64,000 bases of DNA from contig NZ_JAPZSY010000107.1 in assembly GCF_027532025.1 (NCBI RefSeq), positions 1-64,000 of the forward strand. Reading direction: 5' to 3'. Source of the stretch: Inhella sp. Lineage in GTDB: Bacteria; Pseudomonadota; Gammaproteobacteria; Burkholderiales; Burkholderiaceae_C. Shown piece by piece: positions 2,807 through 57,989 of the stretch. Each line of letters begins with the position of its first letter. Position 1 is the first letter of the stretch. A program made the translations under genes and the position numbers. The notes under the pieces are model-generated. The model did no database searches. It worked only from the letters and a program-made list of their open reading frames with translations, and was not told the DNA's origin.

Positions 2807-2969
2807 AAGGGTTCCTCGGCGGGTGGGACAACGATAGGGCGCATCATGGCCGGACGACAGGGCACTGGGCACCCGGGACCTGCCCTAGCCACGATGAATG
2901 CTTGGGCCTGAACCATAACCCTGACTCATGCCAATGGCCGAAGCCGCGCGCAGACGCTAGGCTGACGGC

Positions 2970-4424: not shown

Positions 4425-4481
4425 TGGCCCCACGATCACCCGGCATGCGCCCAGCACCACGCCACTCCTAGAGTCCCCACC

Positions 4482-12029: not shown

Positions 12030-12112
12030 CATGAAACAACCCCCAGTCTCGCGTTCGCTCGCCACCCCCCGAGGGGGCGCTCAGTGGCTTCGGGCGGCCG
12101 GGCGCCACTGAC
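12030..12112. repeat. REP-like palindromic element between dppB and dppC, flanked by a copy of the dppC start
   Basis: This 83-bp spacer interrupts an otherwise fully overlapping operon. It holds a C5/G5 hairpin (GCCACCCCCCGAGGGGGCGC, 12061-12080) and an inverted repeat TCAGTGG/CCACTGA (12081-12087 with 12105-12111). Its left end reads TGACATGAAACAACCCC and the dppC start at its right end reads TGACATGAACAACCCC: the same sequence with one extra A. The element therefore looks inserted with, or copied along with, the translation start of dppC. The ATG at 12031 opens a 26-codon frame ending at 12111, just ahead of the dppC ATG. Confidence 0.75.
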
Positions 12113-32764: not shown

Positions 32765-33859
32765 ATGACGGTCGCCGCTCCCCTGCCCAGCCCCCAGCGC
32801 CCCTTCAAGCGCCTGTGGCTGTCTTACGGCCTGCTGTGTTTGATGAGCTGGCTGCTGTACGCCTTGGCGGGCACCGAATGGCACCGCGATGCCGGCGCCT
32901 TCTGGTTTGGCCTGTACGAAGCCACCTGGAACCTGGGGCCGGCCTTCGCCCTCGGCCCCCTGGCCTGGCCCTGGACGCGCTGGCTGCTCGGCCGGCCGCG
33001 GCGGCTCGCCCGTCGCTTGGGCTGGCACTTGCTGGGCGCGCTGAGCTTCGCGTTGCTGTGGCAAGGCTTGGATGCCCTCACGGCGTGGTTCTTCTTCGGC
33101 GCGGCCCATGCCTGGGCCAGTTTCGAGCAAGGCCTCGTCTGGCGCGCCGCCTGGGGCTGCTTCGTCTATGGCGTGTTGGTGTTCGGCTTCGGTGGCGTCA
33201 TCAACGCCCAACGGGCGCATGCCGCTGCGTTGCAAGCGGCACAGGCCGAGGCGGCCCTGGTTCGCGCCGAGTTGGCGGCCATCAGCGGCAAGCTCAACCC
33301 ACACTTCCTGTTCAACACCCTCAATTCCCTGCTGATGTTGGTGCGCCGCGACGCCGCCCGCGCCGAACACGCCCTGCTCGGCTTCTCGCGGATGATGCGC
33401 TACGTGCTCGACAGCACCCGCCAGCCCGATGCGCACGTGCCTTTGGCCGACGAAATCGCCTTCGTGCGCGACCACCTCGCGTTGGAACAACTGCGGCTGG
33501 GCCCACGCCTGCGCGTGCACTGGGACATCCAGCCCGCCGCCGAAGACGCGCTGGTGCCCCCGCTGACCCTGCAGCCGCTGGTGGAAAACGCGGTAGAGCA
33601 CGGCCTGTCGCCGCAGGTGAACGGGGGCGACCTGCACATCAGCGCCCGCGTGCTCGACGACACCTTGCACCTCAGCGTGCGCGACAACGGCGCCGGTTGC
33701 GCCTGGCCGCCGCCCAGTGACCCCAACGGTCGGCGTGGCGTGGGCTTGTCGGCCCTGCAACGCCGCTTCGAGCTCGAACACGACGGCCGCGCCCGCTTCG
33801 AGGTGGACACCGCCCCGGGCCAGGGCTTCGCCGTCACCATCACCTGGCCCTTGACCTGA
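32765..33859 (+). CDS. LytS/AlgZ-type sensor histidine kinase
   Basis: Membrane kinase of the His_kinase (LytS/YpdA/AlgZ) family, 364 residues. Four hydrophobic segments lie in residues about 15-150, with no separate periplasmic or GAF domain. A short coiled linker (AAALQAAQAEAALVRAELAAISGKLN) leads to the phospho-acceptor box KLNPHFLFNTLNSLLML with H180, the N-box LQPLVENAVEHG, and the G-box VRDNGAG plus GVGLSALQRRFEL. The response regulator starts 13 bp downstream, so the pair is a cognate system. The signal sensed is unknown. Confidence 0.92.
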   Translation: MTVAAPLPSPQRPFKRLWLSYGLLCLMSWLLYALAGTEWHRDAGAFWFGLYEATWNLGPAFALGPLAWPWTRWLLGRPRRLARRLGWHLLGALSFALLWQGLDALTAWFFFGAAHAWASFEQGLVWRAAWGCFVYGVLVFGFGGVINAQRAHAAALQAAQAEAALVRAELAAISGKLNPHFLFNTLNSLLMLVRRDAARAEHALLGFSRMMRYVLDSTRQPDAHVPLADEIAFVRDHLALEQLRLGPRLRVHWDIQPAAEDALVPPLTLQPLVENAVEHGLSPQVNGGDLHISARVLDDTLHLSVRDNGAGCAWPPPSDPNGRRGVGLSALQRRFELEHDGRARFEVDTAPGQGFAVTITWPLT

Positions 33860-33872
33860 ACTCCGCTGCCTC

Positions 33873-34625
33873 ATGCGAACCCTCATCGCCGAAGACGAAC
33901 CCCTGGCCCGCGACGGCCTGGTCGAGTGGGTGCAAGCCCTGCCCCAGTTGCAGCTGCTCGACGCCGTGGGCGATGGCCTGAGCGCCCTCGACGCCATTCG
34001 CACGCAGCGGCCCGACCTCGTGCTGATGGACATCCAAATGCCCGGACTGACCGGCCTGCAAGTGCTGCGGGCCCTGGCCGACGACCCGGAGGCGCACCGG
34101 CCGGCCGTGATCTTCACCACCGCTTACGACGAACACGCGCTCACCGCCTTCGAACTGCACGCGGTGGACTACCTGCTCAAGCCCTTTTCCCAAGAGCGCT
34201 TCCTCGAAGCCGTGCAGCACGCCATGGGGCGTCAATCGGCGCTGGGCGACGACACGCTCCAGGCCCTGGAAGCCGCGCAAACCCCCGTCGACACCGAACC
34301 CCTGCGCCGGCTGCTGGTGCGGGACATGGGCAAGATCATCCCCATCCAGGTCGAGCACATCGAGCACCTGCGCTCCGATACGAAATACACCGCCCTGGCG
34401 GTGCAGGGCAAAACCTACCTGGTGCGCCTGCCCATCACCCACTTTGGCCAGCGCCTGGACCCCCAGCGCTTCCTCAAGGTCAACCGCAGCTGCATCGTCA
34501 ACCTGGACTTCGTTGACGCCATGACCCCCGACGAAAACTCGCAGTTGGTGGTGCAACTGCGCGACGGCAGCCGTTTCACCGCCAGCCGCGAGGTGTCCAA
34601 AGAGTTGAGGGCGCAGTCGCTATGA
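33873..34625 (+). CDS. LytTR-family response regulator (AlgR/LytR-like)
   Basis: 250 residues. Receiver domain (1-120) with IAEDEPLARDG, phospho-acceptor D53 in LVLMDIQMPG, TTAYDEHAL and LLKPFSQERF. C-terminal LytTR DNA-binding domain (about 145-245): IPIQVEHIEHLRSDTKYTAL, HFGQRLDPQRFLKVNRSCIVN, LRDGSRFTASREVSKEL. Such regulators bind direct repeats upstream of cell-surface genes. Its stop overlaps the GIN-domain gene (ATGA), which is the most likely functional partner. Confidence 0.93.
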   Translation: MRTLIAEDEPLARDGLVEWVQALPQLQLLDAVGDGLSALDAIRTQRPDLVLMDIQMPGLTGLQVLRALADDPEAHRPAVIFTTAYDEHALTAFELHAVDYLLKPFSQERFLEAVQHAMGRQSALGDDTLQALEAAQTPVDTEPLRRLLVRDMGKIIPIQVEHIEHLRSDTKYTALAVQGKTYLVRLPITHFGQRLDPQRFLKVNRSCIVNLDFVDAMTPDENSQLVVQLRDGSRFTASREVSKELRAQSL

Positions 34626-35410
34626 AACGACGCCGAGTTTGTGCGGCACTGCTGCTGCCTTTGTGGGCAGCCTCGGTCAGCGCCCAGCCCACGCTCTCGC
34701 CCGTCCCCGGCAGAACCTACGCACCAGGGCCGTTCGACAGCTTGAACTTCAACGGCGCGGCGACGGTGCGCTTTTTCCAAGGCGACCGCGACGAGGTTTT
34801 CGTGGAAGGCCCCACCGACGCCCAGGACAGCGTGGAAATCAGCTTGAAGGGCACGCGCCTGACCGTGGGCACGGCCGGCTCCTGGATGTTCTGGCGCACC
34901 CCGCAACAACGCCTGCGCCTCATCGTGGTGGCCCGCGACCTGCGGGAGCTCACGCTGTCCGGCGCCACCGACTTCCAGGCCCCCGAGCCGGTGCTGCTCC
35001 AGCAACTCAGCATCGACGTGTCCGGCTCCGCCAACACCCAGTTCGACAAGATCAGCACCGAATCGCTGGTATTCAAGGTGGCCGGCGCTGGCTCGGGCCG
35101 ATTCACCGGGCGCGCGCCATCGCTCCTCGTGGACATCTCCGGGCGTGGCGATTTCGAAGGCCACGACCTCAACACTCAGCAGGCCAAGGTCCGGATCACG
35201 GGCTTGGGCAAAGCCAAGCTGTGGGTGCATCAAAGCCTGGATGCGCGCATCTCCGGCATTGGCACCGTGGACTTTTTCGGCAGCCCCACGTTGAAAAAGC
35301 GCACCGCTGGCGCGGGCCGCTTCAACGAGCGGGGCGCACGCACCGGTCCGCCGCCATGGAGCCCGTTCCCGGGCGCCCTGCCACCGGTGCCGTTGGTGCC
35401 CGCCCCCTGA
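34622..35410 (+). CDS. Secreted GIN-domain protein (DUF2807)
   Basis: 262 residues with a signal peptide (RRRVCAALLLPLWAASVSAQ). The body has the repeating beta-helix pattern of the GIN domain: FDSLNFNGAATVRFFQGDRDEVFVEGP, LRELTLSGATDFQAPEP, QLSIDVSGSANTQFDKI, LVFKVAGAGSGRFTGRAPSLLVDISGRGDFEG and VRITGLGKAKLWV. The C-terminus after about 225 is Pro-rich and probably disordered. The family is common in Bacteroidetes and scattered in proteobacteria; molecular function is unknown. Translational coupling to the LytTR regulator suggests it is an output of, or a feedback on, that system. Confidence 0.85.
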   Translation: MKRRRVCAALLLPLWAASVSAQPTLSPVPGRTYAPGPFDSLNFNGAATVRFFQGDRDEVFVEGPTDAQDSVEISLKGTRLTVGTAGSWMFWRTPQQRLRLIVVARDLRELTLSGATDFQAPEPVLLQQLSIDVSGSANTQFDKISTESLVFKVAGAGSGRFTGRAPSLLVDISGRGDFEGHDLNTQQAKVRITGLGKAKLWVHQSLDARISGIGTVDFFGSPTLKKRTAGAGRFNERGARTGPPPWSPFPGALPPVPLVPAP

Positions 35411-38072: not shown

Positions 38073-38813
38073 TCAACGCGCCACGCGACGACAACCGAAG
38101 AAGCCGTTCAGGGTCAGCCGCCCGGTGCGTGGGTCGTCGGTGAGCCGCACCGGCTGCCGAACGCAGCCGGAATGGAACAAGCCACCGTCGTAGAAGATGA
38201 GACGGTTCCAGCGGGCGGGGACCTCGGCCACCTTCTCGAAGTAGTCGTTGCTCTCGGTGAGATAGCCAGGCGCCACGCCGTAGCGATCGGCAAAACGGGC
38301 GTTGTCCAGGGTTTGCGCGTCGTCAACCAACGCTTGGATTTCGGCGGCCGATCGCCGGGGCTCGAAGAAGGCCGTGCCACCGAGCGCCGGATCGTGAAAG
38401 AGGTACAGGACCGAGGCGGCCATCAGAACCGCCGAGGGGTCCAAGGCCGTGCGATCCTTGTGGCACAGCCACTGCCCCGGACGCAACTGCGCCGGCGACA
38501 GCGTCACCATGCTCAGTCGCGCGTACATGTCCAGCGTGCGCCTGGCTCCCATGCGGGTGCGCAGGTGCTGGGCGAAGAAGCCGTCCAGGGCGTCGCGCAG
38601 CGCCTCCGGCACCCCCGTGACCCCGCCGGGGTAGGCATTGGTCTGGGGCGGGTCAAAGCGCACCAGCGCCGCCCAATCTACCACGGCTTGGGGGTCGACC
38701 AGCGCATCGTCAATGACGTGAACCGTGCGGCCACGGCCCAGGTGCAGATCCTGCACCACCGCTTGGGCGTTGAAGAATCGGCCCGCGGCCGGCAGTTGCA
38801 GCGGCCTCACCAT
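38073..38813 (-). CDS. DUF6445 family protein (putative 2OG-Fe(II) oxygenase-like)
   Basis: 246 residues from the ATG at 38813. Segments YARLSMVTLSPAQLRPGQWLCHKD, ASVLYLFHDPALGGTAFFEPR, VPARWNRLIFYDGGLFHSG and LTLNGFFGCR have the layout of a double-stranded beta-helix with a possible H-x-D near CHKDRTALD and a distal His in FHSG, as in prolyl-hydroxylase-like oxygenases. Proteins of this family are commonly encoded beside tryptophan-halogenase-like genes and TonB receptors, as here. Function is unknown. It is 3 bp downstream of the lipoprotein gene, so the two are co-transcribed. Confidence 0.75.
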   Translation of the reverse strand: MVRPLQLPAAGRFFNAQAVVQDLHLGRGRTVHVIDDALVDPQAVVDWAALVRFDPPQTNAYPGGVTGVPEALRDALDGFFAQHLRTRMGARRTLDMYARLSMVTLSPAQLRPGQWLCHKDRTALDPSAVLMAASVLYLFHDPALGGTAFFEPRRSAAEIQALVDDAQTLDNARFADRYGVAPGYLTESNDYFEKVAEVPARWNRLIFYDGGLFHSGCVRQPVRLTDDPRTGRLTLNGFFGCRRVAR

Positions 38814-38816
38814 GCC

Positions 38817-39296
38817 TCACTGACAGGCGGTGAGCGTCTGCGCATTGGGCCCCTGCAGCATTTGGCGACGGCACTCGGGCGAGTTGCGCGCCGCCTCCCG
38901 GCGCAACTCCTCGGCCTTGTCACGGTCGGTCTTGCGGCGCGCCTCCAAGAGCTTGGCTTCGGCGGCCAAGTCCACCTCGAGACCGGGCGCTTTCGCCGGT
39001 CGCTCGATGAGCGCCACCTCGTCGGCGCGAGGTTTCAGGCGCGTCCAGAACACGGCTTTCGCGCCGCTGGGCCACACGGCAGTCACTTCTGGGGTCGTGA
39101 TGTCCGTGGCCCCGGCCGCCCCCCGGTAGGTTTGGGTCTGGGGGGCCACGCCCAGCGACACACCGCCTTGGTACAGCGTGGCGCCTTCGGGCTTGGTTTC
39201 GTAGGTGAGCATGGCTTGGGGCGTGCCGTCGGTGGCGCACGCCACCAAGCCCAATGGCAACAGCCATGTCCAACACACTCGAGCAATTCGCTTCAT
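38817..39296 (-). CDS. Small lipoprotein with a PEGA-like segment
   Basis: 159 residues. The ATG at 39296 is chosen over the one at 39302 because AAAGGA sits 5 bases upstream of it and would abut the earlier ATG. Lipobox LLPLGLVACAT. A beta-type segment, YETKPEGATLYQGGVSLGVAPQTQTY, resembles PEGA repeats of surface proteins. The C-terminal third is a charged helix (EAKLLEARRKTDRDKAEELRREAARN) ending in two cysteines. No named family beyond this. It lies between the halogenase-like and DUF6445 genes on the same strand. Confidence 0.78.
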   Translation of the reverse strand: MKRIARVCWTWLLPLGLVACATDGTPQAMLTYETKPEGATLYQGGVSLGVAPQTQTYRGAAGATDITTPEVTAVWPSGAKAVFWTRLKPRADEVALIERPAKAPGLEVDLAAEAKLLEARRKTDRDKAEELRREAARNSPECRRQMLQGPNAQTLTACQ

Positions 39297-39325
39297 GGTC
39301 ATCCTTTCAGGCTATTGCTGGCGCA

Positions 39326-40837
39326 TCACATCCGGGGCGCCGCGCAATGGTCGGCGATGAACTGGCTGTGCGAGGGCATCACATTGACGCAGGCCTTGAT
39401 GACCCCCGCAATCTCGTCTAGGTAGGTCTGAATTTCTTCCTCGTTCAGCAGGTCCGTCAAGGGGTGGTAGGACTTGGGCTGGATGCGCTGCCCGTACATC
39501 ACCTGCAGCCAGCTCACGGGGCGGAACAACTCCTCGCCCTCCAGGAAGATGCGGCCGCTGGTTTCGAACAGCTTCATCCGGTGCGTCAAGGAGTCGGGCA
39601 CGTCCATCGTCCGACAGTGGTTCCAGAAGGGCGTGTCGGTGCGTTCGGTGGCCTTGTAGTGCAAGATGATGAAGTCGCGCACCCAGGTGTACTCCGCGTC
39701 CATCATGCGGTTGTACTGCTTGCGATCGGACTCGGCGAACCCGGCCGAGGGGAAGTAGGTCAGCAGGTGGGCGATGCCCATCTGGATGAGGTGGATGCTG
39801 GTCGACTCCAAGGGCTCCAAGAAACCGCTGGACAAGCCGATGGACACCACGTTCTTGTTCCAGGCCTGCTTGCGCTTGCCGGTGAGGAACTTGATGGGCC
39901 GGGGGGCCGCCAGGGGCTCGCCGTCCAAGTTGCTCAGCAGCTGGGCACTGGCCTCGTCGTCGCTGATGAACTTGCTGCAGTACACGTGGCCATTGCCCAC
40001 GCGGTGCTGCAGCGGAATGCGCCATTGCCAACCGGCCGTGCGGGCCGTGGCACGCGTGTAGGGCGTGATCTCTTGCGTGGAGGCGCAAGGCACCGCCAAG
40101 GCCCGGTCGCAGGGCAGCCAGTGCGACCAGTCCTCGTAGCCCGTCTTGAGCGCACCTTCGATCAACAGCGCGCGGAAGCCGGAGCAGTCGATGAAGAGGT
40201 CGCCTTCCACCACGGTGCCGTCGTTCAACACGATGGCTTCAACGTGGCCGTCGGCGTCGCGCAGCTTGACGTCCACGATCCGGCCTTCGGTCCGCACCAC
40301 CCCCCGCGCTTCGCTGTACTCGCGCAGGAACTTGGCGTAGAGCGAGGCGTCGAAGTGAAAGGCGTGGGCGATCTGGCCGAGCGGCGAATTCGGCATGTCG
40401 GGCCGGGCCCGCATGAACTTGTTCTGCAAGCAGGCCGCGGTGTTGATCGAGTAGTGGGCGAGGTCCTGGGCCTTGCCGGCCAAGCGTTGCTTCAGCCAGT
40501 AATGGTGGAAGTCCACCGTCCAGTTGAACTGCCCGATGACGCCGAAGCCGTGGATGTAGCGGTCGCCCAAGCGGCCCCAGTTGACGAACTCGATGCCCAG
40601 CTTGAACGAGGCCTGCGTCTTGCGCATGAACTCGTCTTCGTCCAACTCCAGCATGCGGTTGAACAGGCTGATCATGGGGATGGTCGCCTCGCCCACCCCG
40701 ACCGTGCCGATCTCGTCCGACTCCACCAAGCGGATGGCGTACTTGCCCTTGAGCACCTTCGCGAGGGCCGAGGCCGTCATCCAGCCGGCGGTGCCGCCGC
40801 CCACGATGACCACTTGTTTGACTTTGTCTGGTTCCAC
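39326..40837 (-). CDS. Tryptophan-halogenase-like flavoprotein
   Basis: FAD-dependent protein of the PrnA/RebH family, 503 residues from a GTG at 40837. That start has AGGA six bases upstream and gives the usual short N-terminus before QVVIVGGGTAGWM; longer frames start at an ATG (40897) or TTG (40930) without a ribosome site. The FAD loop GGGTAGW is at residues 13-19, VGVGEATIPMI follows, then FKLGIEFVNW (region of the catalytic Lys) and AGWQWRIPLQ (residues about 269-278), the halogenase WxWxIP box. SSGFLEPLESTSIHLIQMGI is also typical. Members beside TonB receptors in Caulobacter and Xanthomonas relatives have no proven substrate. It is 66 bp or more from the receptor terminator upstream. 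Confidence 0.87.
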   Translation of the reverse strand: MEPDKVKQVVIVGGGTAGWMTASALAKVLKGKYAIRLVESDEIGTVGVGEATIPMISLFNRMLELDEDEFMRKTQASFKLGIEFVNWGRLGDRYIHGFGVIGQFNWTVDFHHYWLKQRLAGKAQDLAHYSINTAACLQNKFMRARPDMPNSPLGQIAHAFHFDASLYAKFLREYSEARGVVRTEGRIVDVKLRDADGHVEAIVLNDGTVVEGDLFIDCSGFRALLIEGALKTGYEDWSHWLPCDRALAVPCASTQEITPYTRATARTAGWQWRIPLQHRVGNGHVYCSKFISDDEASAQLLSNLDGEPLAAPRPIKFLTGKRKQAWNKNVVSIGLSSGFLEPLESTSIHLIQMGIAHLLTYFPSAGFAESDRKQYNRMMDAEYTWVRDFIILHYKATERTDTPFWNHCRTMDVPDSLTHRMKLFETSGRIFLEGEELFRPVSWLQVMYGQRIQPKSYHPLTDLLNEEEIQTYLDEIAGVIKACVNVMPSHSQFIADHCAAPRM

Positions 40838-40932
40838 GTCAGGTCCTGCTGTGATGCTTGGGGCGTCCGCCCTCCGGAAGCCCGCTGGCAGCGCCATTCT
40901 TGCGGGTTTCGGCGCTGTGCTCTCACCCAATG

Positions 40933-40959
40933 AAAAACCCCCGGCCGGGGCTGGGGGTT
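40933..40959 (-). terminator. Rho-independent terminator of the TonB receptor gene
   Basis: Stem AACCCCC (40936-40942) with GGGGGTT (40953-40959); on the minus strand it is followed by TTTTT. It separates the receptor from the halogenase-like gene downstream. Confidence 0.85.
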
Positions 40960-40975
40960 GAAGGGATCGTCGAGC

Positions 40976-40999
40976 CGCTCGCCCCCGGGGGAGCGAGCG
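40976..40999. repeat. GC-rich inverted repeat just after the receptor stop
   Basis: CGCTCG (40976-40981) with CGAGCG (40994-40999) around a C5/G5 core. It lies 12 bp after the receptor stop codon and may form the first arm of a two-hairpin terminator or a REP-like relic. Confidence 0.55.
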
Positions 41000-41011
41000 A
41001 CCGAACAGGCC

Positions 41012-43861
41012 TTATTGCAGCTTGTAGTTCACGCGCAAGATGGCCGAGCTGCCCGTCTTGTACGTGTTCACGCCGGTGGCCGTGCGCTCCTTGTACTCGG
41101 GCTTGTTCAGGTTGTTGCCTTCCAAGCGGAACGACAGACCCTTGGCCGGACCCGACTGGAACTCGTAGCCAACCTGGGCCGACACCCAGCTCGAACCCAA
41201 GATTTCCTGCAGGGTGGGGTAGCCACCCACACCGGCCGCCACGCTGCCGACGTACGTCGAGCGGTAGTTCTGCGCGACGAAGGCGCTGAAGCCCCACTTT
41301 TCGAAGTAGATCATCAGCTTGGCGTTCTTCTTCGACAGGCCGGGCATGGGCATCTTGCCGGTCAGCGGCGCCTGCGTCGGGTTTTGGCCCAACACGTTCG
41401 GCAGGTCGACCGAGCTGCTCGTGCCGGCGTAGCTGAAGTTCGCACCGAAGCCATCCAGCCAGTCGGTGAACATGCCGAAGGGCATCGAGGCGGCGATTTC
41501 GTAACCGCTGATGCGGCCACCGTCACCGTTCACGGGCCGGGTCATCTGGCCGATCAGGCCACCAGGAGGCGTGGCCAAGCGCAGGGCTTGGGCGTCCTTG
41601 GTGAAGTCGTAGGCGTTGTTGATGGACTGGGTGATGTAGGTGTCGAGCTTCTTGTAGAACAGCGCGCCACTCACGTAGGCCTTGGTGCCGAAGTACTTCT
41701 CGTACGACAGGTCCAGCGCCCAAGCCTTGAAAGGCTTCAGTTGCGGGTTGCCCGACGAACCGACGAACTTGCCGAAGGTCGAGTCGCCCGTGCAAGTCGG
41801 GTTGGTCGGCGTGCCGCCCGTGGTGCCGTTGCAGAAGTTGTCGACGCCCACGGCCAGCGAGTTGCGCAGGTCGGTCAGCGTGGCGCGAGCGATCTGCTGG
41901 GACACGCCCAAGCGCAGCACGTTGCCCGAACCCAGGTCACCCGACAGGTTCAGCGAAGGCAGCACGTCGGTGTACTTCGTGCCGTCTTGGCTCAGGCCCA
42001 CGGCGGGGTTGGTCAAGGTCACGTCGCTGCCGACGTTGGCGCGGAAGCCGGTCGACGACTGGTAGGTGTTGACGACCTGCAGGCCCATGTTGCCGCGCAC
42101 CGGGATCGACGCCAATTCGGTGTCGATGTCGGCCTTGACGTAGGCCGTCGTGACCTTTTCCTTGATGCCGAAGGACTTGGACAGGATGTCGTCGTTGTAC
42201 TTGCGGATGATCTTCGCGCCCGGCCACAGGTCGGCGGTCGGGTCAAAGGTCAGCATGTCAAAGCCCGTGCCGCCGATGTTGCGCTCGACGTACGAACCCG
42301 CCGGGTAAGCGAACGGCACGCGGCCATCGCCAGCCGCCGACGCGATCACGCCTTCGTCGGTGATGCGGTCCTTGGTGCGGCGGGTTTGGTTGATGCCGTA
42401 CTGCAGGGTGTTGAACCAGCCGCCTTCAAAGGCCTGCTCCAGGTCCAAACGAACGGCTTCCACCTTGTCGTTGATCGTGGGGCCCTTCGAGTAGCCAGCC
42501 TGGGGCACGGGGGCGCCGGTCGGCGAAGCCGGATCGGTCACACCGCTCCAGCCGGTCTGGTCGCGGATGAAGACCGTGGCGGGGTTGGTGTAGTCGGCCG
42601 CGCGGCCCAGCGTGAACTTGGGCGTGCCGGTGCCGACCTTTTCGAACGTCAGGGTGTCGGCGTTCAGGATGCCACCGTAGGCCTCGATGTTGCGCTCCAC
42701 GCGCTTCGAGGTGTTGCGGCTGATGTCCAACACTGCCTTCAGGTTGTCCGACAGGGTCCACTTGTTCTTCCAACCCAGGGAGAACAGCTTGTCGTCGTCG
42801 TAGACGGTTTCGTGGCGGTTGATCAACCCGTTCGGGCTGGCGCCCAGCTGGTAGGTGCCCTTGGTCAGCTCGTTGCCCGCGCCGATGACGGCGTTGGTGA
42901 CGGGGCCACCCAAGCCGCCCTGGATGCGCGCTTCTTTCTTGACGTTCAGGATTTCCGAGACGAACAGATCCAGCTGCGAGCTGAAGCTCTTGTTCGGCTT
43001 GTAGGCCAAGATGGCGGCGGTGCCATAGCGATGATCGGTGATGCGGCGGTTGATGAAGTCAACGCCGTTGCCAAAGTTCGAGACCTTGCCGCCGGTGAAG
43101 GCGCCACCGGAGGCTAGGGTACCGCTGACGTTGTCGTTGGTGCCCCAACCACCTTGGGTGGTTTGGTTGTTGACGCCGTCAGCACGCACCCAGCCAATGG
43201 CCACGCCGATGGTCCGGTCAGCGAACTGATCGATGTAGGTCAGGCTGTAGCGATCGCCCTCGCCCGGCTCAACACCCTCCAGGCCACGCCCGTCTTCGTT
43301 GCGTTGCACGCTACCAGCGATCACGCGGCCCTTAAACGCCAGAGGGTCGATCAAGCGGTTGTCGATGGTGCCGGCCAGGCCAGCGGCCATCAGGCTGGCG
43401 TCGCCGGTCTTGTAGACCACGGCGCCGGCGATCAGTTCGGCCGGGTAGACGCTCAGGTCCACGCCACGGCTGTCACCGGTCGTGCTTTGCTCGCGACCGT
43501 TCAACAGGTAGCCGTTGAAGTCAGGGCCCAGGCCACGGATGCTGATGGTGGACGCCTTGCCGTCGCGGGTGCGCTGCGTGGTCACGCCAGGCAGGCGGGC
43601 GAGCGATTCGGCGATGGTGGTGTCGGGCAGCTTGCCGATGTCTTCGGCCGAAATGGCCTCGACGATGCTGTCTTTGTTCTTCTTGACCGAGATGGCGTCT
43701 TCGATGCCCTTGCGGATACCGGTGACCACCACGGTGTCGAGTTGCTGCGTCTGCGGGGCGGTTTGGGCGTACGCGGCGCCGGTGGCCGCGACCAAAACCA
43801 GGCACCCTGCGGTGACGGCGTTGACGCGGAACAACTCGCGTCCGCTGCGGGAACTCTTCAT
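41012..43861 (-). CDS. TonB-dependent receptor, Caulobacter-type (probable oligosaccharide uptake)
   Basis: Outer-membrane receptor of 949 residues. The ATG at 43861 has AGGAG eight bases upstream and a proper signal peptide (RVNAVTAGCLVLVAATGAAYAQ). The plug starts LDTVVVTGIRKGIEDAISVKKNKDSIVEAISAEDIGKLPDTTIAESLARLPGV in short recognisable pieces (VVVTGIRKGIEDA; SAEDIGKLPD; ESLARLPGV), the form found in the sugar-import receptors of Caulobacter and Xanthomonas. RTATGVNTYKTGSSAILRVNYKLQ is the last strand, ending in a hydrophobic-aromatic pattern. It is divergent from a secreted amylase gene, with a HexR-like palindrome in its leader, so maltodextrin or another alpha-glucan is the likely ligand. 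Confidence 0.93.
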   Translation of the reverse strand: MKSSRSGRELFRVNAVTAGCLVLVAATGAAYAQTAPQTQQLDTVVVTGIRKGIEDAISVKKNKDSIVEAISAEDIGKLPDTTIAESLARLPGVTTQRTRDGKASTISIRGLGPDFNGYLLNGREQSTTGDSRGVDLSVYPAELIAGAVVYKTGDASLMAAGLAGTIDNRLIDPLAFKGRVIAGSVQRNEDGRGLEGVEPGEGDRYSLTYIDQFADRTIGVAIGWVRADGVNNQTTQGGWGTNDNVSGTLASGGAFTGGKVSNFGNGVDFINRRITDHRYGTAAILAYKPNKSFSSQLDLFVSEILNVKKEARIQGGLGGPVTNAVIGAGNELTKGTYQLGASPNGLINRHETVYDDDKLFSLGWKNKWTLSDNLKAVLDISRNTSKRVERNIEAYGGILNADTLTFEKVGTGTPKFTLGRAADYTNPATVFIRDQTGWSGVTDPASPTGAPVPQAGYSKGPTINDKVEAVRLDLEQAFEGGWFNTLQYGINQTRRTKDRITDEGVIASAAGDGRVPFAYPAGSYVERNIGGTGFDMLTFDPTADLWPGAKIIRKYNDDILSKSFGIKEKVTTAYVKADIDTELASIPVRGNMGLQVVNTYQSSTGFRANVGSDVTLTNPAVGLSQDGTKYTDVLPSLNLSGDLGSGNVLRLGVSQQIARATLTDLRNSLAVGVDNFCNGTTGGTPTNPTCTGDSTFGKFVGSSGNPQLKPFKAWALDLSYEKYFGTKAYVSGALFYKKLDTYITQSINNAYDFTKDAQALRLATPPGGLIGQMTRPVNGDGGRISGYEIAASMPFGMFTDWLDGFGANFSYAGTSSSVDLPNVLGQNPTQAPLTGKMPMPGLSKKNAKLMIYFEKWGFSAFVAQNYRSTYVGSVAAGVGGYPTLQEILGSSWVSAQVGYEFQSGPAKGLSFRLEGNNLNKPEYKERTATGVNTYKTGSSAILRVNYKLQ

Positions 43862-43949
43862 GCTTGGAACTCCTAGGCTGTGAAAACGACAGGCGCTCGA
43901 CCCGGCCCACCCAGATCGCCCGCTGTCACGGGGATGACGTCGGAAATTT

Positions 43950-43964
43950 TGTACTAAAACTAGA
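43950..43964. promoter_or_regulatory. HexR-like operator upstream of the TonB receptor
   Basis: TGTACTAAAACTAGA, 13 of 15 positions agreeing with the HexR consensus TGTARTWWWAYTACA. It is about 90 bp upstream of the receptor ATG on the other strand and 157 bp from the amylase start. Confidence 0.6.
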
Positions 43965-44102
43965 TTGCATTCCATGCGCGAAAGGGCCTCCGATACCTGG
44001 GTTCACCCCTGTTTTCGTCGCTAAATCGGCACAAACAAAGGGTTTAACCTGACATGGCTTACCCGGATGCGAGGGGGATTGGGGCCGGCGACGATGCATG
44101 TT

Positions 44103-44117
44103 GGTAGCAAAACTACA
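44103..44117. promoter_or_regulatory. HexR-like operator immediately upstream of the amylase start
   Basis: GGTAGCAAAACTACA, 13 of 15 with the HexR consensus and identical over all 15 bases to the site at 47831. It ends three bases before the ATG at 44121, where a ribosome-binding site would be expected. Confidence 0.68.
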
Positions 44118-44120
44118 GTC

Positions 44121-46733
44121 ATGCGCACTCACTTCCTACACCCATCCGTCGCCGCGTTGCTGACCCTCGTGGTCACGGTGGTCGGTGGCCCGGTCGGGGC
44201 CGCCGAGTGCCCAGCGCCGGCCCCTCGCCCATCCCCCGATTGGCGCGATCAGGTCGTGTACTTTGTGATGACCGATCGCTTCGACGATGGCAACCCTGGC
44301 AACAACGACCAAGGCGCGGGCGAGTACCGCCCCCAAGACGGGCGCTTCTACAGTGGCGGCGACTTCGCCGGCTTGATGCGCCGCTTGGACTACATCCAAG
44401 GGCTGGGCGCAACGGCGCTTTGGATCACCCCGCCCGTACTCAACCAGTGGCGCGACGGCCAAGGCACGGGCTACCACGGTTACTGGGCCAGCCACCTGAA
44501 GGAAGTCGACCCGCACTTGGGCACTTTGAACGACTACCGCTGCTTGGCGCAAGCCCTTCACGCCCGCGGGATGCACCTGATCCAGGACGTGGTCCCCAAC
44601 CACATGGGCAACTTCTTCGGCTATGCGGAGGGCGCCTGGCGGCGGGACGACCCAGCGGCCGGCTGGCAACCCCATGCAGGCAGCGCACCTCACACGCGCC
44701 CCCTACAAGCGCCCTTCGACCAGAACGACCCGCGCGACCCCATCCAACGCGCAGCAGGGGTCTATCACTGGACGCCCGCCATCCGCAACTACGCCGACCT
44801 CGAGCAAGAACTGAACTGGCAGATGTCCGGGCTGGACGACCTGAACACCGAGAACGCCGTGGTGCGCCGCGCCCTGCGGGACAGCTACGGTTTTTGGCTG
44901 CACGAGGTGGGGGTGGACGCGCTGCGCGTGGACACGGCGTTCTACATGCCGCCCACCTTTTTCGAGGACTGGCTGCACAGCAGCGACCCACAAGCGCCCG
45001 GCCTGCTGCGCGTGGCACAGCAAATGGGGCGCCACGACCTGCTGGTGTTTGGCGAGGCTTTTGGCATCGACAAGCCTGGCGAGACCCGGCAGATGCGTCG
45101 CATTCAGGCCTACCAAACGCCGGGACGCATGAACGGGATGCTGAATTTCCCGCTCTACGGCAGCTTGCAGGCGGTGTTTGCACAGGGGCGAGCTCCCGCT
45201 GAGTTGGCCCAGCGCCTGCAGGCCCAGACGGTCGTGTTCGGCGCCCGCCAGCACCGCATGCCGACTTTCTTGGACAACCATGATGTGGACCGCTTCTTGG
45301 CCGGGGGCAGCGAGGAAGCCTTGCAGCAAGCCTTGTTGGCGCTGTTCACCCTGCCGGGCATCCCCACCGTTTACTACGGCACCGAGCAGGGCTTCACCGA
45401 ACCTCGGGCCTCGATGTTTGCTCAGGGGCATGGCAGCGGCGGGCGCGATCACTTCGACCCCCAACACCGGCTGTACCGGCTGATCGCGGACTTGACCCGC
45501 TTGCGCCGCGATGAACCCGCCTTGCGCCGCGGCACGCCCCAGGTGCTGCGCGCCAACGGGGCCGGGCCGGGCGTGCTCGCGTGGCGCACCACGCACGGCA
45601 AGCAGTCCTTGCTCGTGGTGTTCAACACGTCGGACTCGCCGCAGTGGGTCGATCGCTTGCGCGTCGGCCCAGGGGCCATGGCCCTGCGGCCGCGTTTCGC
45701 TTTGCATGGCCAGCCCTCGGCCCTGCAAACGGACGCCTCGGGGCAAGTGGATGTGCTCTTGCCACCTCGCAGCGGGCAGGTGTGGCAACTGGAGCCCAGC
45801 CCCCCTTCCGGGGCACCCAGCACCCCCAAGGCCACGATGGCCGCTCCCCGCATCACCGCCGATGGGCGGTTGGCCCTGCAAGGGCTCGTGCCCCCTGGCC
45901 ACGAGGCCGAACTGCTGGCCGACGGCGACCTGGCCCACGCCATGCCACTGAAACCCGACGCGCGCGGCCGCTGGCTGGCGCACTGGCCCACCGACGATTG
46001 GCTGGACCCCGGCGTGCGGCACCGCTTGAGCCTGCGCCACCGGGCCAGCCCCGACGCGCCGTGGGTGGGCGCCGCTGCGCACGAGGTGCAGGTGCCGGTG
46101 CGCTGGCAGCCCATCGCCGAGCTCAGCGACCCGAAGGGCGACGACCATGGCCCGCTGGGGCACACCACCTACCCGACCGACCCCAGCTGGGGTGCTTCGC
46201 GGCAGATGGACCTGCTGGGCCTGCGCGCGGAGCGAACCGGTCGTGCCCTGCGGCTGACGGTGAAGCTGCACGAGATCACCACCACATGGAACCCGGCGAA
46301 CGGTTTCGACCACGTGGCCTTCACGCTGTTCCTGGAGCTGCCGGGGCAGCCTGGCGGGCAGCGAACGATGCCGTTGCAAGGCGCGGAGCTCCCGGACGGC
46401 ATGGTGTGGCACCGGCGTCTGCGCGTCCATGGCTGGTCCAATGCCTGGTTCAGCGCCGACGGGTCCAGCGCCCAGGATGAGGGGCAGCCCTTCACCCCTG
46501 GTGCCACGGTGTCGGCCCACCCCGAGCGGCGGGAACTGGTGATCACCCTGCCAGCCGCCGCCCTGCCCCCTGGCGCCAGCCTGGAAGGGGCCAGGGTGTA
46601 CCTGAACACCTGGGATTGGGATGGCGGCTACCGCGAGCTGGCCGACACCGCCGGACCGCACACCATGGGCGGACGCCGCAGCCCCGCGGACCCGCGTTGG
46701 ATGGATGCCATCGGGCCGCTCACCTTGCGGTGA
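44121..46733 (+). CDS. Secreted alpha-amylase (GH13) with a C-terminal glucodextranase-like domain
   Basis: Starch- or maltodextrin-hydrolysing enzyme of 870 residues. The ATG at 44121 gives a good signal peptide (THFLHPSVAALLTLVVTVVGGPVGAAE) though it has no visible ribosome site; an in-frame ATG at 44094 is the alternative. The (beta/alpha)8 barrel has region I DVVPNHMG, region II VDALRVDTAF with nucleophile D271, region III LLVFGEAF with acid E312 and region IV FLDNHDVDRF with D388. DRFDDGNPGNND near the N-terminus is a calcium-site segment. A beta-sandwich follows (about 480-570), then a C-terminal DOMON/glucodextranase-C-like region (ELSDPKGDDHGPLGHTTYPTD; HVAFTLFLELPGQ). Probably periplasmic or outer-membrane, feeding the receptor system next door. 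Confidence 0.93.
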   Translation: MRTHFLHPSVAALLTLVVTVVGGPVGAAECPAPAPRPSPDWRDQVVYFVMTDRFDDGNPGNNDQGAGEYRPQDGRFYSGGDFAGLMRRLDYIQGLGATALWITPPVLNQWRDGQGTGYHGYWASHLKEVDPHLGTLNDYRCLAQALHARGMHLIQDVVPNHMGNFFGYAEGAWRRDDPAAGWQPHAGSAPHTRPLQAPFDQNDPRDPIQRAAGVYHWTPAIRNYADLEQELNWQMSGLDDLNTENAVVRRALRDSYGFWLHEVGVDALRVDTAFYMPPTFFEDWLHSSDPQAPGLLRVAQQMGRHDLLVFGEAFGIDKPGETRQMRRIQAYQTPGRMNGMLNFPLYGSLQAVFAQGRAPAELAQRLQAQTVVFGARQHRMPTFLDNHDVDRFLAGGSEEALQQALLALFTLPGIPTVYYGTEQGFTEPRASMFAQGHGSGGRDHFDPQHRLYRLIADLTRLRRDEPALRRGTPQVLRANGAGPGVLAWRTTHGKQSLLVVFNTSDSPQWVDRLRVGPGAMALRPRFALHGQPSALQTDASGQVDVLLPPRSGQVWQLEPSPPSGAPSTPKATMAAPRITADGRLALQGLVPPGHEAELLADGDLAHAMPLKPDARGRWLAHWPTDDWLDPGVRHRLSLRHRASPDAPWVGAAAHEVQVPVRWQPIAELSDPKGDDHGPLGHTTYPTDPSWGASRQMDLLGLRAERTGRALRLTVKLHEITTTWNPANGFDHVAFTLFLELPGQPGGQRTMPLQGAELPDGMVWHRRLRVHGWSNAWFSADGSSAQDEGQPFTPGATVSAHPERRELVITLPAAALPPGASLEGARVYLNTWDWDGGYRELADTAGPHTMGGRRSPADPRWMDAIGPLTLR

Positions 46734-46746
46734 GGCGGGCGGCCGG

Positions 46747-47784
46747 TCAGCTCAGCTGGGTCAGGGCCTGAGCCGCGCCGTCGAGCGCGGCCAGGGTGTC
46801 GGTGATCACCGGCGTCGGGATGGGCTGCAAAAAGGCGCTGAACCGCCCCTTGGCCTCGAACCGCTGCCGGAAGGCGGATCGTGTGAAGCGATCGCCCAGG
46901 CGGGGCACGATGCCACCGCCGATGTAGACCCCACCGCGGGCACCCAAAGTCAGCGCCACCGAACCGGCGAAGCTGCCCAGCATGGCGCAAAACGTGTCGA
47001 GCGTTCGAGTGGCCAAGGCATCGTCGTCGGCCAGTGCCCGTTCCACGATCCACTTGCCATCCACCTCCGGCACGGCGCGCTGACCTGCCACCTGCGCCAC
47101 CGCGCGGTACAAGACCGGCAAACCGATGCCCGACAGGAAGCGCTCGGCCGACACGTGGGGGAACTCGCGACGTGCGGCCGACAACAGCTCGCACTCAAAA
47201 TCGTCCGCGGGCGCAAGGGTGGCGTGGCCGCCCTCACCGGGGATGGCCAGCCAAGTGACTCCTGCCCCACCGCCGGCCCGTTGGTGCGGCATCAAGCCCG
47301 CCACCCCCAAGCCGGTGCCCGGCCCCACCACGGCCATGGGCGCCACCGGGCGGCCCAGCGGCGCGCCTTGCACCTGCTCGGGTCGCAGGCGTGGCAAGGA
47401 CAAAGCGAGGGCCTCGAAATCGTTGAGCACCACCAGGGTCTGGACCCCCAGTTGGTCGGCCAACTGGTGCTGAGAGAAGCTCCACGCACTGTTGGTGAAG
47501 CGCACGACATCCCCCGTCACGGCCGTGGCGACCGCCAGCGCGGCGCTGGCCGGGAGTTCGGCAGAGCCGATGAGGCCCGAGACGGCCAGGCCATTGAGGT
47601 AGGCCCGGGCCGCATCCACCAATTGCGGGTACTCGGCGACGGACAGGGTGCGCACGTGCTGGGGCGCCTGACCCGGACCCGACATCCAAGCGAAGCGGGC
47701 ATTGCTGCCCCCGACATCCGCCAAGAGCCAAGGAAAGGGGGCCAACGAAGTGGAAAGCGCGGACGCGATGGAAGTTTCGACCAT
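46747..47784 (-). CDS. glk: Glucokinase (ROK-unrelated, E. coli Glk type)
   Basis: Phosphorylates glucose released from glucans. 345 residues from the ATG at 47784 (VETSIASALSTSLAPFPWLLADVGGSN); the longer frame crosses the operator. Motifs: LLADVGGSNARFA (phosphate-1), VVLNDFEALALSLP (catalytic Asp), VVGPGTGLGVAGL, IPGEGGHATLAP and GGVYIGGGIVPRL. It is convergent with the amylase (13 bp) and divergent from the glucokinase-RpiR fusion, with a HexR-like site 47 bp upstream of its ATG. The N-terminal extension of about 25 residues is longer than in E. coli. Confidence 0.93.
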   Translation of the reverse strand: MVETSIASALSTSLAPFPWLLADVGGSNARFAWMSGPGQAPQHVRTLSVAEYPQLVDAARAYLNGLAVSGLIGSAELPASAALAVATAVTGDVVRFTNSAWSFSQHQLADQLGVQTLVVLNDFEALALSLPRLRPEQVQGAPLGRPVAPMAVVGPGTGLGVAGLMPHQRAGGGAGVTWLAIPGEGGHATLAPADDFECELLSAARREFPHVSAERFLSGIGLPVLYRAVAQVAGQRAVPEVDGKWIVERALADDDALATRTLDTFCAMLGSFAGSVALTLGARGGVYIGGGIVPRLGDRFTRSAFRQRFEAKGRFSAFLQPIPTPVITDTLAALDGAAQALTQLS

Positions 47785-47830
47785 GACGGCTCGGCTCCTG
47801 CAGCCGGGCAAACAGTGCAATGAACCACAC

Positions 47831-47845
47831 GGTAGCAAAACTACA
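47831..47845. promoter_or_regulatory. HexR-like operator upstream of glk
   Basis: GGTAGCAAAACTACA, the same 15-mer as at 44103. It lies 47 bp upstream of the glk ATG. Confidence 0.68.
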
Positions 47846-48022
47846 AGCCGTCGGCAATGGCGTTTGCACCCGGTTTCACCTGCCATCCCGAATACGAGGA
47901 ACGCGAATCCAGCTTACGAAAAACACAGCAAGTTATTGATGCAGCTCAATTGCACCGAGAAAGACCGCGGCATAGCGCCGTCATGCGCTCGCCAAGCCTC
48001 CCACCCCAACACCCGCCGGTCA

Positions 48023-48037
48023 TGTAGTTGGCCTACA
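48023..48037. promoter_or_regulatory. HexR-like operator upstream of the glk-rpiR fusion
   Basis: TGTAGTTGGCCTACA inside the perfect inverted repeat CATGTAG-TTGGC-CTACATG (48021-48039). The arms match the HexR half-site (TGTAGT/CTACA) though the centre is GC-rich. It lies about 60 bp upstream of the GATAAT hexamer. Confidence 0.55.
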
Positions 48038-48164
48038 TGGCGGCTGGGCTGCGGCCTCTCGCATACCCCCAAGCCGCACAGGGAGACGCTTCTCGATAAT
48101 GAGTTGGTGTACTTCGACAACAGTCCCACCGGGGTTGAACACCTCAACCGGGACGGGAGCCGTG

Positions 48165-50072
48165 ATGACTTTTGAGCGCCCTCGCCTGCTGGCCGACATC
48201 GGCGGCACTTTTGCCCGGTTTGCCGTGGAACCCGAAGCCGGCGTGTTCCTGCACGCCAAGTCGCTGCGCTGCGCCGACCACCCGGATTTCCACGCGGCGG
48301 TCCGCTCCTACCTGGACGGACTGCCGGGTGCCGCCTCGGCAGGCGAGAGCGAGCGGGTTGCTCATGCGTGTGTCGCCATCGCCAACCCGGTAGAGGGCGA
48401 CCAAGTCCGGATGACGAACTACCACTGGCAGTTCAGCATCGAAGAGATGCGCCACCGCCTCGGCCTGGACACCTTGGTGGTGGTCAACGACTTCACGGCC
48501 CTGGCCCAGGCCTTGCCCCGGCTCAAGGCCGACGAGCGCCAGCAGGTGGGTGGTGGGCAAGCCGCGCCCAACCATGTGATCGGTCTGCTGGGCTCGGGCT
48601 CGGGCTTGGGCGTTTCCGGCCTGATTCCGGCGGGCGATGGCTGGATTGCGCTGGGCACCGAAGGCGGCCATACCAGCTTCAGCCCCCGCGACGAACGCGA
48701 GATTGCCATCCTGCGCCACGCTTGGCGCGAGTACTCGCACGTCTCCTTCGAGCGTTTGTTGTCGGGGCCCGGGCTGTCGCTCATCCACCGCGCACTGGCC
48801 GAGCTGCACGGGGTGAGTGCACCCACTCGCCAAGCGCCTGAGATCACGCAAGCGGCCCTCGACGGAAGCGACGCGCTCTGCCAAGAGACGGTCGACGTGT
48901 TTTGCGCCCTGCTCGGCACTGCCGCAGGGAACTTGGCGGTGACGCTGGGGGCGCTGGGTGGGGTGTTCGTGGGCGGCGGCATCGTGCCGCGCCTGGGGCC
49001 CTTGTTCGAGCGCTCGTCCTTCCGCCGCCGCTTCGAAGAGCGCGGCCGCTTCAGCGACTACGTGGCCGCCATCCCCACTTACGTCATCACTGCCGAACAG
49101 GCCACCTTCAAGGGCGCCTCGGCCATCCTGGAAAGCCAGCTCCGCAAGCTGCAAACCAGCCCGGGCGCCGCCATCCTGGAGCAGATCCGTCGCGCCAAGC
49201 CGCAACTCACCCCAGCCGAGCAGCGCGTGGCCGAACAAGTGCTGGCGCGTCCGCGCGCGGTGCTGTCGGACCCCATCGCCGACATCTCCAAGGCCGCCGG
49301 CGTGAGCCAACCCACCGTCATCCGCTTCTGCCGCAGCTTGGGATGCGAGGGCCTGAGCGACTTCAAGCTGCGCCTGGCCTCGGGCCTGACGGGCACCGTG
49401 CCGGTCACCCACACCAAGGTCAACGAAGACGACAGCATGGTGGAGCTGGGTGCCAAGGTGTTGGGCAACACGGCCAGCGCCATCTTGCAGGTGCGCAGCC
49501 AACTCAACCGAGACACCATCGACCGCGCCACCGACATCCTGATGCAAGCCCGGCGCATCGAGTGCTTTGCCGCCGGCCATTACGGCGTGGTGGCGCAAGA
49601 CGCTCAGTTCAAGTTCCTGCGCTTCGGTGTGCCCTCCAGCGCTTACACCGAGCCTCGCTTGGCGCACCTGGCCAGTCAGGTGCTGGGCCCGGGCGACGTG
49701 GCCCTGATCGTGTCCAGTGGCGGCAAGTTGCCCGAGTTGCTGGACGTGGCCGAACAGGCCCGGGCACGCGGCGCCAAGGTGGTGGCCATCACCGCCAGCC
49801 AAAGCCCGCTGGTGCGCAAGGCGGACGTGGCGCTGCTGGTCGATCACCTGGAAGACGTGGCCACCCACCTGCCCATGGTGGGGCGCATCCTGCACCTGCT
49901 GGTGATTGACATCCTGGCGGTGGGCCTGGCCATGCGGCGCGGCACCGTGGAACGCGAAGTGATCGAAGCGCTGGACGAACGCGCAACCCCGGCAGCCCGC
50001 GCAGCCCGCGGTGCGGCGCCGGGGGTCAGCATGGCGTCGCCCATGGCGGCGCTCACGTCGCACAGCCGCTGA
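48165..50072 (+). CDS. Bifunctional glucokinase / RpiR-family (HexR-like) transcriptional regulator
   Basis: 635 residues from the ATG at 48165, with GGGAG eight bases upstream. Residues 1-325 are a complete Glk-type glucokinase: LLADIGGTFARFA, VVVNDFTALAQALP, LLGSGSGLGVSGL, LGTEGGHTSFSP, GGVFVGGGIVPRL. From about 338 an RpiR helix-turn-helix begins (ILEQIRRAKPQLTPAEQRVAEQVLA, ISKAAGVSQPTVIRFCRSLG, FKLRLASGL). From about 450 a SIS domain binds a sugar phosphate (IECFAAGHYGVVAQD, DVALIVSSGGKLPELLDVA). Such fusions are known in Burkholderiales. The regulator half is HexR-like, whose usual ligand is KDPG, so the enzyme that feeds the Entner-Doudoroff pathway carries its own regulator. Confidence 0.94.
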   Translation: MTFERPRLLADIGGTFARFAVEPEAGVFLHAKSLRCADHPDFHAAVRSYLDGLPGAASAGESERVAHACVAIANPVEGDQVRMTNYHWQFSIEEMRHRLGLDTLVVVNDFTALAQALPRLKADERQQVGGGQAAPNHVIGLLGSGSGLGVSGLIPAGDGWIALGTEGGHTSFSPRDEREIAILRHAWREYSHVSFERLLSGPGLSLIHRALAELHGVSAPTRQAPEITQAALDGSDALCQETVDVFCALLGTAAGNLAVTLGALGGVFVGGGIVPRLGPLFERSSFRRRFEERGRFSDYVAAIPTYVITAEQATFKGASAILESQLRKLQTSPGAAILEQIRRAKPQLTPAEQRVAEQVLARPRAVLSDPIADISKAAGVSQPTVIRFCRSLGCEGLSDFKLRLASGLTGTVPVTHTKVNEDDSMVELGAKVLGNTASAILQVRSQLNRDTIDRATDILMQARRIECFAAGHYGVVAQDAQFKFLRFGVPSSAYTEPRLAHLASQVLGPGDVALIVSSGGKLPELLDVAEQARARGAKVVAITASQSPLVRKADVALLVDHLEDVATHLPMVGRILHLLVIDILAVGLAMRRGTVEREVIEALDERATPAARAARGAAPGVSMASPMAALTSHSR

Positions 50073-50097
50073 CCCAGAACCCGACCGACCGACTCGC

Positions 50098-52190: not shown

Positions 52191-52277
52191 GGCGGAGTCT
52201 CCGGGTGCAGGGGTGGCCCGAGTATTGCGAGGCAGTCGATTCGTGTCCAATTCATCCATCCACTTCGACGATTCGCC

Positions 52278-53180: not shown

Positions 53181-53210
53181 TCCGATCCGTCCTCACCAGG
53201 AGCCCACCCC

Positions 53211-55130: not shown

Positions 55131-55208
55131 CGCACCGCGCCGCAGAACGCCGGACTGTCTGAAACAACCGACACCACGCCCCCGCAACCCTCGCTATGGT
55201 GCGCGCCC

Positions 55209-57921: not shown

Positions 57922-57989
57922 CTTTTTGGCGGCCCGCCAGGGCGCCGGACAATGACCACCTCTCCGATCACCCCCAAGGGCTGACGACC

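Follow-up and report, generated by a model that had tools for sequence, protein, structure and literature searches.

A flavin-dependent halogenase and a predicted DUF6445 oxygenase accompany carbohydrate-type TonB receptors in proteobacteria

In a stretch of 64,000 nucleotides from Inhella sp. (contig NZ_JAPZSY010000107.1, positions 1 to 64,000; hereafter the window), a TonB receptor gene is followed by genes for a flavin-dependent halogenase, a small lipoprotein and a protein of the DUF6445 family. The halogenase and DUF6445 families are linked to receptors of this type in alpha-, beta- and gammaproteobacteria. We tentatively regard the four-gene module as an oxidative accessory of a maltodextrin-type TonB receptor, in which the enzymes may act on the receptor polypeptide itself; among the readings considered here this is the one we favor, with less than even confidence. 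No description of the module or of the receptor-halogenase link was found in the accessible part of the open-licence literature, outside of which most subscription journals and all bioRxiv preprints lie. The four genes are as follows.

43861-41012, minus strand: TonB receptor, Xanthomonas/Caulobacter carbohydrate type (TIGR01782); the open reading frame (ORF) is open to 43975, with 43861 as the likely start
40930 (TTG) or 40897 (ATG) to 39326, minus strand: flavin-dependent halogenase of the BrvH/Xcc4156 group, assigned by PF04820 and motifs
39302-38817, minus strand: small lipoprotein with signal peptide and lipobox LVAC recognized by eye and a conserved AVW(P/V)SGAK segment
38813-38073, minus strand: DUF6445 protein (PF20043), predicted 2-oxoglutarate (2OG)/Fe(II) oxygenase with prolyl-4-hydroxylase fold; H118xD120, GGT145-147, H214, R232

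A preliminary description of this DNA had proposed the four-gene set, with the receptor facing an alpha-amylase, and the Pfam and NCBIfam scores bear it out. The receptor reaches 493 bits with TIGR01782 (cut-off 310), the halogenase 666 bits with PF04820 Trp_halogenase (39326-40930, minus strand) and the DUF6445 protein 228 bits with PF20043 (38073-38813, minus strand). The receptor also contains the plug domain PF07715, and a signal peptide is recognizable by eye when translation starts at 43861. Its AlphaFold 2 (AF2) model has a predicted local distance difference test score (pLDDT) of 83.9 and a TonB receptor fold according to Foldseek. Halogenase and lipoprotein genes are separated by 23 bases, lipoprotein and DUF6445 genes by 3 bases. 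The source genome contains a single full-length Trp halogenase match and a single DUF6445 match.

The nearest solved relatives of the halogenase are 9luq (554 bits), Xcc4156 (6y1w, 543 bits) and BrvH (6frl, 498 bits). PrnA follows with 292 bits, and both PrnA and RebH are far weaker matches than these three. Counted along the alignment, K110 corresponds to K79 and E375 to E346 of PrnA, which we take to be the catalytic residues. The flavin adenine dinucleotide motif GxGxxG starts at G44, and the WxWxIP motif is formed by W301, W303, I305 and P306. Among 136 aligned halogenases from related loci, the Lys is kept in 135, the Glu in 133, W301 in 136 and W303 in 132. Both catalytic residues to which the preliminary description had drawn attention are present, and the halogenase is, judged by its sequence, catalytically complete. 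The available text of PMC7336383 describes the native substrates of BrvH and three Xanthomonas enzymes as unknown; its authors consider that Xcc4156 could accommodate a peptide or a bigger Trp derivative.

The DUF6445 family was not found mentioned in the open-licence literature searched. In the window protein no second Pfam family was detected at E<=0.001; a single-sequence search against solved structures gave no match at E<=1, and a profile search gave one chance-level match. Its AF2 model has a pLDDT of 94.2 and a predicted template modelling score of 0.91. The top Foldseek matches are OGFOD1, Tpa1 and a bacterial prolyl hydroxylase (E 5.3e-5 to 1e-4, query TM score 0.34-0.47). VIA-align superimposes OGFOD1 over 182 residues at 3.2 Å (Z 14.7), followed by PasI (Z 13.6), LH3 (13.5), PolD (13.0), Tpa1 (12.9), the EF-Tu prolyl hydroxylase from P. 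putida (12.6), PHD2 (12.5) and PiuC (9qn4, 11.5). Many of these fold neighbors are protein hydroxylases, namely OGFOD1, LH3, Tpa1, the EF-Tu prolyl hydroxylase and PHD2. Across 12 DUF6445 proteins H118, D120, G145-G146-T147, H214 and R232 are invariant. H118, D120, H214 and R232 are all kept in 45 of 46 aligned sequences, the remaining one being a fragment. R232 would be the basic residue that binds 2OG. From the fold and the metal motif we predict that DUF6445 is a 2OG/Fe(II) oxygenase with a prolyl-hydroxylase fold, and therefore the module would hold two oxidizing enzymes.

Related loci were taken from the genome collection as the best 80 of at least 572 halogenase relatives. Since only the best-scoring 80 were kept, this set leans to close relatives, and many of the stretches end at contig ends. 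A receptor homologue is present in 71 of the 80 loci and DUF6445 in 13. In 58 loci a receptor on the same strand ends at most 3.5 kb upstream of a halogenase. Representatives of the neighbor clusters comprise glycoside hydrolases (GH13, GH3, GH30, GH1, GH31, GH43, GH115), LacI, MalF-type and major facilitator superfamily transporters, Cupin_8, and S9 and M2 peptidases. The sugar of the linked loci therefore varies, and what they have in common is the receptor rather than the glycan. The peptidases recur near the halogenase, as in L250 (2391-4364), L033 (13134-15038) and L028 (11431-13536).

Whole genomes give the same picture, and the recurrence of the partners in other proteobacteria, which had been asserted beforehand, exceeds chance. 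In the 60 genomes of the family in which receptors were searched as well, 33 halogenases above 300 bits were taken, one of these rows being a fragment of an interrupted gene, the remaining fragments of which were left out. For 19 of the 33, a listed receptor is found at a distance of at most 5 kb (0.51 expected), and in all 19 cases it is upstream on the same strand. Scoring covered no more than 10 halogenase and 12 receptor candidates per genome; the number of unlinked halogenases is therefore a maximum and that of receptors a minimum. Among 150 genomes of the family the halogenase (>300 bits) occurs in 27 and DUF6445 in 21. The halogenase is present in 15 of the 21 DUF6445 genomes versus 12 of the 129 others (Fisher p 3e-9). 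In a wider sample of the class, DUF6445 was found in 6 of 232 genomes.

DUF6445 neighborhoods were inspected at 23 of 26 places. A receptor accompanies DUF6445 at 18 of them, whether a halogenase is present or not, and at 12 the two genes are directly adjacent; 11 of these 12 have no halogenase in the stretch (L223, L227, L229, L234, L261-L265, L267 and L268). Neighbors at the latter places include an HGSNAT-like acetyltransferase and a sub-cut-off GH16 match, perhaps indicating another sugar. In L233 DUF6445 adjoins a receptor, and a halogenase with a second receptor follows further along. Halogenase, receptor and DUF6445 occur together at 6 of the 23 places, including the window.

The gene order of the module is not constant among loci (ARRANGEMENTS). 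Receptor, halogenase, lipoprotein and DUF6445 follow each other on a single strand in the window and in L007, and L010, L011 and L013 have the same order with DUF6445 inverted. On two Sphingomonas plasmids the order is receptor, DUF6445 and halogenase, the latter two overlapping at their ends. DUF6445 faces halogenase and receptor in Catenovulum, and on two Asticcacaulis plasmids it lies amid glycoside hydrolases in a stretch containing no halogenase. Halogenase and DUF6445 form a single ORF in L219, L220 and L259, i.e. in three genomes of two genera, and Pfam confirms this for L219. These fusions suggest one substrate for both enzymes. L219 carries a longer set, consisting of a receptor (9998-13063), a divergent halogenase (8313-9977), SapC (7604-8296), a JmjC-like Cupin_8 protein (6291-7286) and the halogenase-DUF6445 fusion (4047-6281). 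SapC, of which 82 copies were found in 63 of the 150 genomes, may be part of the same chemistry; 12 copies are found no more than about 1.1 kb from a halogenase, and the copy of the source genome lies elsewhere.

The module is flanked by the following genes.

38056-37310, minus strand: RmlD-like short-chain dehydrogenase/reductase, the next gene 3' of DUF6445; flank kept in the congener, outside the module
44067-46733, plus strand: GH13 alpha-amylase with a glucodextranase C-terminal module, divergent from the receptor; conserved flank, outside the module
46747-47886, minus strand: glucokinase, conserved flank
48099-50072, plus strand: glucokinase-HexR fusion, after the glucokinase

The GH13 neighbor points to an alpha-glucan as the sugar of the receptor locus. 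In the congener G250 the flanks are well kept, with protein identities of 85% for RmlD, 74% for GH13, 83% for glucokinase and 94% for glucokinase-HexR, and its DNA is collinear with the window from 43368 to 59801 at 77-85% apart from gaps. Between these shared flanks, the receptors are 43% and the halogenases 61% identical, and an S9 peptidase takes the place of lipoprotein and DUF6445. Receptor and halogenase of the window are closer to their Inhella counterparts (70% and 81%). Only receptor residues 1-50 are nearer to G250 (76% versus 62% to Inhella); all later blocks of 50 residues are nearer to Inhella. The simplest reading would be that a recombination joint lies close to the beginning of the receptor gene and that barrel, halogenase, lipoprotein and DUF6445 came in as one piece. 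A third comparison was precluded because the congener G363 gave no RmlD match. The G+C content of the module (0.63-0.69) is barely below that of its flanks and gives no clear sign of transfer.

Several other features of the window were noted. The two glucokinase genes adjoin each other, the second one being fused to a HexR-type regulator. At 32765-35410 a DUF2807 protein follows a LytTR-type two-component pair. A terminator-like hairpin with a T run between receptor and halogenase (40936-40952) was rejected as a candidate, as the window holds five such sites versus 5.3 in shuffled sequences and the fold z is -1.46. At the receptor-halogenase junctions of related loci a perfect-stem hairpin occurs in 15 of 67 cases, which perhaps sets the receptor level above that of the enzymes.

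A tree was calculated from 133 receptors, of which 88 are linked to a halogenase, 11 to DUF6445 and 34 to neither; 15 further receptors close to stretch ends were omitted. The labels cluster on this tree, with 10 changes versus at least 35 (mean 40.6) in 200 shuffles. A pair of residues, R161 and D417, occurs in 85 of 89 halogenase-linked receptors when that of the window is added, in 8 of the 34 unlinked ones and in none of the 11 DUF6445-only receptors; this marker changes six times on the tree. The four linked receptors lacking the pair comprise that of L039, on the opposite strand to its halogenase, those of L233 and L051, where a second receptor is present, and that of L269, which is truncated by the stretch end. 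In a sample of 15 genomes, with receptor lists capped as described above, the pair was found in 25 of 52 receptors of halogenase genomes versus 1 of 12 in three halogenase-free genomes. R161/D417 thus marks linked receptors but was not accepted as proof of receptor modification, since it could be ancestral. A conserved Trp was sought as the halogenation target, and no Trp column reaches 85% in the 88 linked receptors. A Trp target is possible but not supported, and the same applies so far to the bromo- or chloro-Trp in outer-membrane proteins that had been suggested.

The preliminary description had called the lipoprotein PEGA-like. Signal peptide and lipobox stand by eye, whereas PEGA-like describes only a short motif resemblance by eye; Pfam gave no family for the window protein at E<=1 or for its L007 homologue at E<=0.1. 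The homologues considered here are the eight phmmer matches from related loci, because a lipoprotein profile also caught ORFs in other frames within halogenase genes.

We prefer the receptor chain as the substrate for three reasons: the barrel seems to vary in step with the enzymes, DUF6445 is similar to protein hydroxylases, and the fusions suggest one substrate. Neither enzyme has a signal peptide by eye and, therefore, both should encounter the substrate in the cytoplasm. This would replace the earlier idea of a modification at the outer membrane by one taking place before export. Halogenase and DUF6445 would act in the cytoplasm, successively or in complex, on one common substrate, most likely the receptor polypeptide ahead of Sec export. 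The flavoenzyme would halogenate or hydroxylate a side chain and DUF6445 would hydroxylate. The resulting mark might tune ligand binding, stability or recognition of the exposed barrel, and the lipoprotein could serve as an optional outer-membrane partner. From the preliminary description this retains the receptor-linked module, a halogenase that appears complete and the carbohydrate gene context; Trp halogenation of outer-membrane proteins is so far unsupported.

Several observations weigh against modification of the receptor. Gene linkage cannot separate receptor from ligand as the substrate. The best Trp column holds Trp in 72% of the 88 linked receptors, in 24% of the unlinked ones and in 0 of 11 DUF6445-only receptors. 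One of the eight unlinked receptors with R161/D417 comes from a halogenase-free genome, and the pair may be an ancestral trait that other receptors have lost, because an NGR in the plug is common among TonB receptors. The difference between the congeners could also result from rapid divergence in place. Fourteen of the 33 halogenases have no listed receptor inside 5 kb, the receptor list being capped. PasI, a small-molecule enzyme, is second to OGFOD1 in the fold ranking of DUF6445, and PolD likewise acts on a small molecule. Finally, for CciT, an iron receptor of Caulobacter whose function specifically requires the cytoplasmic oxygenase CciO (PMC12004947, PMC12004943), the models in the available text of PMC12004947 invoke the ligand or an inhibitor rather than the receptor.

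The fold ranks of PasI and PolD and the case of CciT also favor a different role, in which the enzymes produce, break down or detoxify a small aromatic or indolic molecule tied to the receptor, be it a ligand, an inhibitor or a by-product accompanying plant or algal glycans. PiuC, with Z 11.5 also among the fold matches, and YbiX have, like CciO, been proposed to play such roles beside iron receptors. Furthermore, indole derivatives are substrates of BrvH and Xcc4156 in vitro according to the accessible portions of PMC5945002 and PMC7336383, although the authors of the former doubt that indole is the natural substrate of BrvH because activity on it is low. However, a single halogenase family serves receptors near alpha-glucan, beta-glucan and xylan enzymes. 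Glycans have no aromatic ring, and we know of no common aromatic cargo of these receptors. Since the sugar varies and offers no ring to halogenate, the common factor should be the receptor or a shared small molecule, and we judge modification of the cargo rather doubtful, placing it behind that of the receptor chain. Considerably less credible is another exported protein of the locus as the substrate, either the lipoprotein with its AVW(P/V)SGAK segment or a secreted glycoside hydrolase, with the receptor merely sharing the operon. The Trp of this segment is kept in 8 of 8 lipoprotein homologues, and two of the three lipoprotein-positive genomes (the source genome and G353) carry the gene adjoining the halogenase. 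Yet the lipoprotein occurs in only 7 of the 80 loci and in 3 of 150 genomes, one match being weak, versus 27 of 150 for the halogenase, and therefore it cannot be a general substrate.

A housekeeping or stress role unrelated to the receptor, with enzymes co-regulated with sugar uptake or hitchhiking, appears just as poorly placed as the exported-protein explanation. It would account for the halogenases lacking a nearby receptor and for the DUF6445 places of the same kind: in four of 23 the stretch contains no receptor (L260, L266 at a contig end, L272, L273), and in L207 the receptor is about 11 kb away. In three classes and several arrangements, however, strand and adjacency are preserved, and the halogenase-DUF6445 fusions and the apparent block exchange argue in the same direction. 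A classical pathway to a halogenated natural product is very improbable. The seemingly complete halogenase would suit it, but the ORFs scanned in the vicinity of the module yielded no biosynthetic genes, in agreement with the preliminary description, and the neighbors of related loci are mostly carbohydrate genes.

Relatives of the halogenase were also found in 82 phage records, and the names of 71 of these refer to cyanobacteria or cyanophages; most of the matches listed are at 29-35% identity. Among the matches listed, two unannotated human-faecal 'phage' records reach 54% identity; both may be bacterial DNA. One of them, MT835646, probably is, and it carries a DUF6445 relative (1204-1893) directly ahead of the halogenase relative (1941-3392). 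Annotated 2OG-Fe(II) oxygenase genes lie beside or near the halogenases of Pelagibacter phage HTVC008M and Synechococcus phage syn9. This pairing is suggestive only, because those stretches carry several such oxygenases. In the pelagiphage and cyanophage stretches L282 (5421-7380) and L283 (4485-12425), halogenases with 2OG-Fe(II) oxygenases beside or near them are close to structural genes. The passage nearest to a receptor-halogenase link in print, in PMC11337851, supposes that an unknown flavin-dependent Trp halogenase of phages might be involved in virus-host receptor interactions.

In its most far-reaching form, which we consider unlikely, our proposal would describe a widespread and undescribed system: a halogenase and a prolyl-hydroxylase-like oxygenase would put halogen or hydroxyl groups on a co-encoded sugar receptor before export, and this would be the native job of BrvH/Xcc4156 halogenases. 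Phages with distant halogenases by 2OG oxygenases may use the same chemistry. For indole-type halogenases the search for substrates is narrowed to three candidates, namely receptor, cargo and partner protein. It also gains a named co-enzyme, DUF6445, the class of which is now predicted.

Quinone-cofactor enzymes offer one comparison. Their maturation flavoproteins QhpG and LodB act on peptidyl Trp, and the halogenase resembles them weakly, with NCBIfam scores of 27.8 (cut-off 240) and 19.4 (cut-off 400), far under the cut-offs. The ribosomal prolyl hydroxylases OGFOD1 and Tpa1 and the bacterial EF-Tu prolyl hydroxylase share the fold of DUF6445 at an identity of only about 14-18%. BrvH and Xcc4156, among the three nearest solved relatives, share the catalytic Lys and Glu and the WxWxIP motif with the window halogenase. 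As far as the available text goes, they have been treated as enzymes, and the word 'TonB' appears in the main text of neither PMC7336383 nor PMC5945002; the genomic partner set is the finding here. In CciT-CciO, Fiu-YbiX of E. coli and PiuA-PiuC of Pseudomonas, a TonB receptor adjoins a 2OG-Fe(II) oxygenase, as in the module. Unlike the module, these are iron receptors, a halogenase is mentioned 0 times in PMC12004947, and DUF6445 and PiuC have the fold alone in common. The available texts differ on receptor protein in the oxygenase deletion, which is reduced according to PMC12004943 and raised in membranes according to PMC12004947. The module extends the question of why cytoplasmic oxygenases are required by TonB receptors to a case with a halogenase. 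CciT-CciO is the closest known case, and the same adjacency of a receptor and a predicted 2OG oxygenase is kept in the 18 of 23 DUF6445 places and in the plasmid records.

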